Below are positions 2,396 through 4,707 of a stretch of DNA of 6,422 bases, one piece after another. Below the pieces are notes generated by a model. It was given only the letters and a program-made list of their open reading frames with translations, was not told where the DNA came from and did not search any database. The DNA is from Oscillospiraceae bacterium (GTDB taxonomy: Bacteria; Bacillota_A; Clostridia; Oscillospirales; Ruminococcaceae), in the NCBI GenBank assembly GCA_017848205.1, contig JAGDDO010000299.1:1-6422 (forward strand), given 5' to 3'. Made by a program: the position numbers and the translations under genes. How positions within the stretch are numbered: the first letter of the stretch is position 1; the number at the start of each line of letters is the position of its first letter.

Positions 2396-3160
2396 ATGGC
2401 AAGAATTATTTCAGTTATTACTCAGAAAGGCGGAGTCGGCAAGACTACCACGGTAAATGCTCTGGCAGCCACTTTAAATAAATTAGGAAGGCGCGTCCTC
2501 GCCATAGATATGGACCCTCAGGGCAATCTTTCATTCAGCCTTGGTGCCGAAACTGAAGACGTCCGTACTATTTATGATGTAATCAGGAAAGAAATGAATG
2601 CTCTTGACTGCATACAGCGCTGCAATACTTCTGACGTTATACCATCTGACATCCTTCTCAGCTCCATCGAACTGGACTATACCGGAAAAAACAGAGAATT
2701 CCTTCTCAGAGAAGCTCTCGGTGATGTAAAGAATCTTTACGACTACATTCTCATCGATTCACCGCCAAGTCTCGGCGTTCTTACAGTTAACGCCCTTGCG
2801 GCAAGCAAATACGTCATCATGCCGATGCTTCCGGACATTTTCAGCCTTCAGGGAATTGCAAAGGTTTACGACGTTATCGAGCACGTAAGACTAACATGTA
2901 ACCCTAAACTTGAGATAGGCGGAGTTCTCGTTAACCGTTACAACAAACGTTCAAAACTACACAAGGAAGTTATGGGAACAGCTCAGCTGGTATCAAGAAA
3001 ACTCAGTATTCCTGTTTTCAGAACAGCAATAAGAAACAGTCCCGCTATTTCAGAAGCACAGTCACTTCAGTGTGACATAACCGAATACAACCGCAGAGTA
3101 GCTGCGATAAGAGATTTCAAGGCACTTACAGAAGAACTGATCGAACGAGGTATCCTATAG
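2396..3160 (+). CDS. ParA/Soj-type (MinD superfamily) partitioning ATPase, orphan
   Basis: This 254-residue protein is a ParA-family ATPase, the normal length for Soj-like members. It has the deviant Walker A motif KGGVGKTT (residues 11-18, signature lysine K11, K16), the A' motif IDMDPQGN (37-44, predicted catalytic D40) and the Walker B segment YILIDSPPS (117-124, D121). Further typical stretches are LTVNALAAS (129-137) and MPMLPDIFSLQG (142-153). Family members dimerise on ATP, bind nonspecific DNA and are released when a partner stimulates hydrolysis, which moves or spaces a cargo. There is no N-terminal helix-turn-helix, unlike plasmid P1-type ParA. A GAGG ribosome binding site (2385-2388) precedes the ATG. 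The next gene, 19 bases downstream, encodes not ParB but a low-complexity protein with a ComFB-like domain, so the cargo is probably not the chromosome origin. A chromosomal soj elsewhere in the genome is expected but not visible here. Confidence 0.95.
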   Translation: MARIISVITQKGGVGKTTTVNALAATLNKLGRRVLAIDMDPQGNLSFSLGAETEDVRTIYDVIRKEMNALDCIQRCNTSDVIPSDILLSSIELDYTGKNREFLLREALGDVKNLYDYILIDSPPSLGVLTVNALAASKYVIMPMLPDIFSLQGIAKVYDVIEHVRLTCNPKLEIGGVLVNRYNKRSKLHKEVMGTAQLVSRKLSIPVFRTAIRNSPAISEAQSLQCDITEYNRRVAAIRDFKALTEELIERGIL

Positions 3161-3179
3161 TATCAAGACGGAGGCAGTT

Positions 3180-3908
3180 ATGACAAACACAAGGAGAACA
3201 AAAAGAAATATAAACAAGGAACTTATGTTCAGCAAAATAATGCCTACCTACTCCACAAGTACTTTCAATGAGTATTATCAGAACAGTACGGAAGCAAGGG
3301 GTCCGAGAGGCAGTGAACCGGATACTTTCAAAATACGCGAAAAGGTACTCGACGCACTCAAGGACAGAGTACCTATGCAGGACGATGAGCTTGATCTTCC
3401 TCCTGTAAGGAACAGTGAACCGGAATTCCCGAACGGAACATACCGTCAGGCTTATCAGAACTATCATCAGAACCGTGACCAGATACAGCAGTCACAGCCT
3501 TATCAGAGCACACGCGTATTCCCTGTTCAAAACCAGATTCAGCTTACACAGGAAGTACCTGTCCAGCGCCAGATGCAGTTCACACAGGAAGCACCTGTTC
3601 AGCGTGAAACATCTGCAGCGACTCAGCCTGCTGTGATAAACAGTGACGAACCGCGTTACATCAATGTCACAGAAGAAGTTCTTTACTCAAAGCTTAACGA
3701 GATGATAGCAAAATTCAAATGCTGCAGCTGCGAAAAATGCAGACAGCACATCGTTCTTCAGGTTCTCAACAGTGTAAAACCTGAGTACGTATACAAAAAG
3801 CCTTCCGAAGTGAAGAAACTTATAGCTGAAAACAACTATGTTGATATAAATCAGCCGGTTATCAGGGCTATTCTCGAAACAAAGTCCAATCCGCCGCATA
3901 AAAAATAA
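3180..3908 (+). CDS. Low-complexity protein with C-terminal ComFB-like domain, putative ParA partner
   Basis: This 242-residue protein has three parts. Residues 1-20 are basic (RRTKR at 5-9), resembling the positively charged N-terminal peptides with which ParA partners stimulate ATPase activity. Residues about 25-158 are rich in Gln, Pro, Asn and Tyr, probably disordered, with a 12-residue tandem repeat at 119-142 (QIQLTQEVPVQR, QMQFTQEAPVQR). Residues about 160-240 look like a ComFB-type domain: NVTEEVLYSKLNEMI, then FKCCSCEKCRQHIVLQVLNSVKPEYV with Cys 181, 182, 184 and 187, then a second helical half ending in SNPPH. ComFB is named from a Bacillus competence operon; cyanobacterial relatives have been reported to bind cyclic di-GMP, and the Cys cluster may bind metal. 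The ATG has CGGAGG (3169-3174) five bases upstream and follows the ParA stop by 19 bases, so both genes share one mRNA. The ComFB assignment is by eye, and partnership with ParA is inferred from synteny and architecture. Confidence 0.8.
   Translation: MTNTRRTKRNINKELMFSKIMPTYSTSTFNEYYQNSTEARGPRGSEPDTFKIREKVLDALKDRVPMQDDELDLPPVRNSEPEFPNGTYRQAYQNYHQNRDQIQQSQPYQSTRVFPVQNQIQLTQEVPVQRQMQFTQEAPVQRETSAATQPAVINSDEPRYINVTEEVLYSKLNEMIAKFKCCSCEKCRQHIVLQVLNSVKPEYVYKKPSEVKKLIAENNYVDINQPVIRAILETKSNPPHKK
3534..3605 (+). repeat. Two in-frame 36-bp tandem repeats
   Basis: Two adjacent 36-base units (3534-3569 and 3570-3605) match at 30 of 36 positions and encode 12-residue units QIQLTQEVPVQR and QMQFTQEAPVQR. 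A partial copy (PVQN, residues 115-118) precedes them. They lie in the low-complexity linker of the ComFB-like protein and could vary in copy number between strains. Confidence 0.85.
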
Positions 3909-3913
3909 TTGTA

Positions 3914-3951
3914 AAAAGTCACAAATGTCCTTATGGATTTTTGTGACTTTT
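3914..3951 (+). terminator. Terminator hairpin after the ParA/ComFB-like operon
   Basis: A 12-bp perfect stem (3914-3925 with 3940-3951) begins six bases after the stop codon; inside it, after one T-T mismatch, 4 more base pairs including one G-U close a TTAT tetraloop. The T run (TTTT, 3948-3951) forms the end of the stem, with only TCTTT further on. It is A/T-flanked and nearly symmetric, so it may work in both directions. Confidence 0.75.
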
Positions 3952-4071: not shown

Positions 4072-4707
4072 ATGGAAATAAACGATACTACCAAGATCAG
4101 CTCTTTCTATCCGAAATCTGAAGTCAAAAGTGTCAGAAAGTCTGCTAAAACTTCAGACACATCTGCCGTAAGTACAGGCGCTCAGGAATCCGGAATTTCT
4201 GCAATGCAGAAGCAGGATACGTTTGTGAGGCAGGAAAGTGTTTCAGCTACTGACACCGGTATCTACTCAAAGGAGTCAATAACAAGGACCATTGAGGAAC
4301 TGGAAGATCAGAGAACCCAGGCTTTTGTATCTATGATCGAAAAAATGTTCCAGTCACAGAGCAATTCCGAGTTTCTTTCAGTAGGTGACATTACGAAGAA
4401 CATTTCTCTTCACTTCAGCACTGAGGATATCGAAGCAGCAAAGGAATCCATCTCTGACGGCGGTTTCTACTCTGTCGATGCTGTAGCAACAAGGATAATG
4501 GACATGGCAATGTCGCTTGCAGGAGACGATCCTGAAAAAATATCCGTGATGCGCGATGCAGTTACAAAGGGATTTGGTAAAGCAGCAGAAACCCTTCATC
4601 TGAAAGAGGACGATATGCCTGACATTACCAAGGACACCCTTGCAGAAGTTATGAAACGTTTCGACGACTGGGAGGAATCCTACAAGAAGACCGAAGAGAC
4701 TGTCTGA
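4072..4707 (+). CDS. Conserved-type acidic protein of unknown function
   Basis: I cannot name this 211-residue protein. Residues 1-65 are Ser/Thr-rich, low complexity and probably disordered. From about 68 it is predicted mostly helical: SITRTIEELEDQRTQAFVSMIEKMF (about 68-92), then a conserved-looking part from about 118 to 202 with GGFYSVDAVATRIMDMAMSLAGDDPEKI, AVTKGFGKAAE and MPDITKDTLAEVMKRFDDWEE. From memory this last pattern (a Y-x-V then T-x-RI, 'AGDDPEK', 'GF-KA', 'LP-IT--T', 'FD-W') occurs in uncharacterised proteins of Firmicutes and of flagellated Proteobacteria; I hold this at low certainty. There is no signal peptide, membrane segment or Cys, so it is probably cytosolic. The ATG has a strong GGGGAGGG ribosome binding site six bases upstream. 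It is apparently a single-gene unit between two terminators. Confidence 0.85.
   Translation: MEINDTTKISSFYPKSEVKSVRKSAKTSDTSAVSTGAQESGISAMQKQDTFVRQESVSATDTGIYSKESITRTIEELEDQRTQAFVSMIEKMFQSQSNSEFLSVGDITKNISLHFSTEDIEAAKESISDGGFYSVDAVATRIMDMAMSLAGDDPEKISVMRDAVTKGFGKAAETLHLKEDDMPDITKDTLAEVMKRFDDWEESYKKTEETV

Follow-up and report, generated by a model that had tools for sequence, protein, structure and literature searches.

The window, by which we mean the whole stretch of 6,422 nucleotides that we analyzed from an Oscillospiraceae bacterium, contains a parA gene that is directly followed by a gene for a protein with a ComFB domain. The locus raises the question of which partner and which cargo such a ParA has. 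In the accessible part of one account, the cargoes given for ParA/MinD ATPases are chromosomes, divisomes, carboxysomes, flagella, and chemotaxis clusters, and ComFB is not mentioned there (PMC10241942). We found neither a description of a ParA-ComFB pairing nor experimental work on it in the open-access literature, a scope outside which bioRxiv and most subscription journals fall.

Here, we report that the two proteins are a real, conserved ParA-partner pair that is linked to flagella. The first-pass annotation had proposed an undescribed positioning or partitioning system. This proposal is partly supported, by a ParA without ParB, by its conserved pairing with one dedicated partner, and by the adaptor-like build of that partner; from its genomic linkage, the cargo of the pair is probably the flagellum.

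The gene pair and the architecture of the partner

The parA gene (positions 2396-3160, + strand) encodes a 254-residue Walker ATPase of the ParA/Soj type, which belongs to the ComFB-linked (flagellar) clade described below. The protein matched Pfam AAA_31 (E-value 3.3e-53) and its Walker motifs are intact; the deviant Walker A motif, KGGVGKTT (residues 11-18), showed few changes across 66 typed relatives. The comFB-like gene (3180-3908, + strand, 242 residues) begins on the same strand after a gap of 19 bases in the ORF calls. The layout annotated at first pass, a ParA ATPase and, after this gap, a protein with a basic N-terminus, a Gln/Pro-rich region, and a small C-terminal domain, was confirmed by the ORFs, the Pfam matches, the composition, and the AlphaFold2 model. 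The two genes form one unit, an ATPase with a dedicated partner.

A sigma-70-like promoter precedes parA (2331-2359, + strand, TTGAAA-17-TATAAT, 11 of 12 matches). The scan gave 6 such sites in the region with 4.7 expected; thus, only the quality of this site is notable. A terminator-like hairpin 3' of the GH5 gene (2259-2291, + strand; 5 found, 2.4 expected) separates the pair from that gene. By eye, we also noticed an inverted repeat 3' of comFB (3912-3950, AAAAGTCACAAA...TTTGTGACTTTT), a possible terminator that is absent from the scan output. In addition to the pair, the window encodes an AraC-type regulator, the GH5 protein, a protein designated c7, a C39-like protein (below the cut-off), a YlmH-type RNA-binding protein, and LeuB. 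The Pfam scan detected no ParB and no comFA or comFC product among the eight window genes.

The C-terminal part of the partner matched Pfam ComFB (E-value 1.4e-8, residues 162-238), and its match to the NCBIfam ComFB model (E-value 1.9e-6) was under the cut-off of that model. It is a ComFB protein both by sequence and by modelled fold. The ComFB domain (residues 158-240; 3651-3899, + strand) is preceded by two further regions. A basic N-terminal arm (residues 6-24; 3195-3251, + strand) is conserved, with a motif like [IFL]DKExMFxKIMP, hereafter type 1, in relatives; the net charge of residues 1-24 is +5. The Gln/Pro-rich linker (residues 66-157; 3375-3650, + strand) is not conserved and is disordered according to the structure model, composition, and conservation, with 29% Gln and 8% Pro in residues 88-150. 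The mean fraction of the commonest residue was 0.65 in the arm vs. 0.14 in the linker. In the AlphaFold2 model, a short helix occupies residues 13-20, the blocks of residues 21-150 have low confidence (pLDDT 46-69), and the C-terminal domain is confidently modelled (blocks up to 98). In two loci, L042 and L015, the partner frame has about 606 residues, with a very long acidic repeat linker.

This combination of a conserved basic arm, a disordered linker, and a small domain resembles the build of ParA adaptors. McdB, for example, is largely disordered and has a basic arm. Like McdA/McdB of carboxysomes, the window encodes an ATPase and an adjoining, mostly disordered partner with a basic arm; unlike that system, the partner domain and the gene neighbors are different and the cargo would be flagellar.

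The ComFB domain contains a CCxCxxC motif (residues 181-187; 3720-3740, + strand), of which C182, C184, and C187, together with, in most cases, H240, are retained across ComFBs and likely form a metal site. A Gly, a Gln, and an Asp that are near-invariant in free ComFBs are absent from the ParA-linked ones; thus, the latter may have lost the binding of cyclic dinucleotides. In Anabaena, c-di-GMP influences cell size through the ComFB protein CdgR, according to the accessible part of its description (PMC13075795). Unlike ComFB/CdgR, the present partner has an arm and a linker, pairs with ParA, and is without these near-invariant residues.

Conservation of the pair and its relation to Soj

The closest locus (L002; partner 99% identical) was found in a Ruminococcus metagenome-assembled genome, G001, and we drew one genome sample from the family of G001 and one from its class. 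A partner with 70% identity is encoded by Ruminococcus sp. HUN007. The family sample comprised 297 genomes, 99 with flhA and 198 without. Many of the sampled genomes are drafts of unstated completeness; therefore, absences may be gaps. A profile built from ComFBs of close relatives matched 69 of the 297 genomes, all of them flhA-positive, and none of the 198 flhA-negative ones (Fisher 4.5e-44, computed ignoring shared ancestry). This co-occurrence is confounded by descent. Of the 30 loci fetched in the first family search, 29 had a ParA frame 5' of ComFB and in the same orientation, including two clipped by the locus end. Among the 69 genomes matched by the first profile, 53 had the pair and 16 had only a free ComFB. 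A second profile, A4 (type 2), was run on 59 chosen genomes, a set apart from the 198 flhA-negative ones. With both profiles together, the pair was found in 69 of the 99 flhA-positive family genomes, and the genes overlapped or were at most 39 bases apart in 61 of these. The neighborhood search called for at first pass thus established that the pairing is conserved. No pair was seen in the other 30 flhA-positive genomes, which include the 16 with a free ComFB. In the class sample of 291 genomes, flhA was present in 86 of the 88 genomes with a ComFB match of any length. As a side observation, flhA appeared to be in two pieces in G001 (C58) and in G114 (C2).

The partners fell into two arm types, type 1 in 45 of the 69 pair genomes and type 2 (KTAHVLxLL-like) in 23, with neither in one. 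Among 60 loci, a type 1 arm was accompanied by ParA in 40 of 40. The 20 loci without this arm had no ParA in 17 cases and ParA in three (L060, L079, and L085); on these 17, we rejected the free ComFBs as ParA partners.

The nearest solved chains of the window ParA are Soj-type (135 bits to 8ray and 125.6 bits to 1wcv). The phylogenetic tree, from which three of the 69 ParA rows (G018, G051, and G100) were omitted, separated the 67 ComFB-linked ParAs from 16 Soj ParAs by a branch with 100/100 support. The type 1 ParAs formed one group, such that the type 1 arm requires one change. The tracking of arm type with ParA group fits co-evolution in these sequences, and, as it is a single change, joint descent predicts the same.

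We compared two positions that we take to be equivalent to the DNA-contact arginines R218 and R189 of Soj. At the former, Arg or Lys occurred in none of the 67 ComFB-linked ParAs vs. 15 of the 16 Soj proteins. At the latter, Arg occurred in 39 of 44 ParAs of type 1 and in 12 of 22 of type 2. The ComFB-linked ParAs have new basic residues at 181 and 213.

The absence of a ParB partner, also noted at first pass, extends beyond the window: the two closest genomes had one ParB match each, which adjoined another ParA. In the 20 genomes examined, the second ParA adjoined ParB in 19, and the two were about 2.9 kb apart in the 20th (G250). We therefore rejected ParB/parS as the partner, and ParB does not belong to this ParA. 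Within comFB, the window and L002 each contain one parS-like site, which has three mismatches (1 match vs. 0.03-0.04 expected, which is notable). No such site was found in the relative L001, and we took the window site as chance rather than as a real parS. One parS-like site was found elsewhere in L033 and two in the soj locus L186. Compared with Soj/ParB-parS, therefore, the window ParA has its closest solved relatives among Soj-type chains but falls in a separate clade, with no adjoining ParB and no convincing parS.

Flagellar neighborhood of the pair

A flagellar operon adjoins the pair in 41 of the 69 genomes. Within 1 kb, flgM is divergent from the pair in 28 of the 69 and fliD in 5; the pair lies 5' of flgB/flgC, co-directional and within 1.5 kb, in 7, and is divergent from flgB/flgC within 6 kb in 1. 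The class sample added three genomes in which the pair is divergent from fliD. The neighbors were identified by Pfam spot checks of single loci: FlgM, FlgN, FlgK, a flagellin-type FlgL, FliW, CsrA, FliD, and FliS in L043, and rod proteins, FliE, FliF, and FliG in L079 and partly in L096, L143, L145, and L147.

The remaining 28 of the 69 have no flagellar operon beside the pair, and in 16 of them less than 5 kb of DNA was available on one side. These 28 include the two genomes closest to the window, G001 and G002, which have flhA; no flagellar genes were recognized in the available flanks of the pair, which span 2.8 kb on the upstream and 7.6-8.0 kb on the downstream side. In the relative G242 (L033), parA, comFB, and c7 are together, with flgM to fliD divergent from them. 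This arrangement suggests that the flagellar neighborhood was lost in the lineage of the window.

A PilZ-like gene lies upstream of the pair, co-directional and within 3.5 kb, in 16 of the 69 genomes (15 of the 16 with a type 2 arm; 8 confirmed by Pfam). By an in-house profile, a GGDEF-like gene lies likewise in 5 of the 69 (2 confirmed by Pfam). The searches for GGDEF and PilT covered all pair genomes except G100, G123, and G199, 66 in total; GGDEF matches occurred in 62 of the 66 and in none of the other four. With these neighbors and matches, a link to c-di-GMP stays plausible despite the lost ComFB residues. The highest numbers of GGDEF matches among the scored candidates of the 66 genomes, 46 each, were those of G001 and G002.

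In Bacillus subtilis, comFB shares a listed operon with flgM to csrA, according to the accessible part of the source (PMC8849057), and thus adjoins the same late flagellar block. Unlike the present loci, that listing names no parA, and the window has no comFA or comFC. On this basis, ComFB may have been tied to flagella before it came to be paired with ParA. Our results give ComFB, a widespread domain, a flagellar context outside cyanobacteria.

FlhF/FlhG sites and counts flagella in many flagellated bacteria. Like FlhG, the window ATPase is of the ParA/MinD family, and its relatives are encoded among flagellar genes. Unlike FlhF/FlhG, FlhF over the cut-off was found in 0 of the 297 family genomes, the partner is a ComFB protein, and the ATPase is nearer to Soj-type chains than to FleN, to which its match was weak (30 bits to 5j1j). 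By sequence, the window ATPase is not FlhG/FleN. No FlhG-like frame was found beside flhA in eight genomes, as judged by comparing the window ParA with the open frames in eight stretches around flhA and by an AAA_31 search of 20 genomes. In the class sample (n = 291), flhA was present in 112 genomes, the same FlhF search matched 102, and 101 have both. Among the 11 with flhA and no FlhF, four have the pair (G001, G415, G456, and G539), four have only ComFB-domain matches in short frames (G017, G387, G480, and G484), and G308, G346, and G452 have neither. ParA beside ComFB was found in none of the 34 FlhF-positive class genomes for which a locus was fetched (about 1.5 kb per side, some clipped by contig ends). 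In a family without detected FlhF, the pair is a specific candidate for the missing siting or counting function.

Possible functions of the pair

We consider it probable that ParA and ComFB are a ParA-partner system dedicated to the flagellum, serving its siting, its number, or its c-di-GMP-linked control in the manner of McdA/McdB or FlhG. Such a system may be a hitherto undescribed way to place or control flagella, with positioning as the likeliest mechanism. We infer the contact between ParA and arm, the matrix, the cargo, the ComFB dimer, and any ligand control. ParA would dimerize with ATP on a matrix, either the nucleoid or the membrane. The conserved basic arm of the partner would bind the ParA dimer and stimulate hydrolysis, and the linker would be a flexible tether. 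The ComFB domain, probably dimeric, would dock on a flagellar or c-di-GMP-linked component, and basal bodies would be spaced, counted, or inherited as a result.

A bolder version of this proposal, which is possible and against which we lean slightly, is that the pair is a third kind of flagellum-siting system, used by a large group of flagellated Ruminococcus relatives in place of FlhF/FlhG. The arm would switch the ATPase, ComFB would connect the system with the basal body in a c-di-GMP-controlled manner, and ComFB would be chiefly flagellar in the class.

The divergent intergenic regions shared with flgM and fliD, together with the PilZ-like and GGDEF-like genes and the GGDEF matches given above, would also suit a regulator of flagellar expression, that is, a FleN-like antiactivator or a tuner of the adjoining flgM, fliD, or flgB operon, perhaps with c-di-GMP input. 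We think this unlikely: Pfam detected no DNA-binding domain in ParA or the partner, and the arm-linker-domain architecture is that of a ParA adaptor. The position ahead of flgB-flgC-fliE-fliF-fliG in L079 also suits a structural partner.

The dedicated flagellar system is also preferred over a positioner of chemotaxis arrays, which accompany flagella; we regard such a PpfA- or ParC-like role as quite improbable. For ParA relatives, the accessible part of PMC10241942 gives chemotaxis clusters as the second known kind of motility cargo, and in L040 the pair is about 6.6 kb away from a CheA gene. Like PpfA/ParC, the pair would be a ParA-type motility system; unlike them, its neighbors are flagellar operons in 41 of the 69 genomes, which is weak evidence against this role.

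Partitioning of another cargo, such as type IV pili, a plasmid, or a second chromosomal site, is the least probable reading, since the Soj-type ParA, the single three-mismatch parS-like site of the window, and PilT over the cut-off in 43 of the 66 pair genomes are set against a ParB that adjoins another ParA, the flagellar adjacency of the pair, and the 21 of 66 genomes with no PilT match, on account of which we discarded type IV pili as the feature shared by these genomes.

Downstream of the pair, c7 (4072-4707, + strand) encodes a 211-residue protein that had no Pfam family and no family match at E-values up to 0.001; its structure model is helical, with low confidence. It is found again close to the pair in some relatives and is a possible third member. 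Beyond L001 and L002, c7 was near the pair in 11 further fetched loci, in 4 of which it has the opposite orientation.
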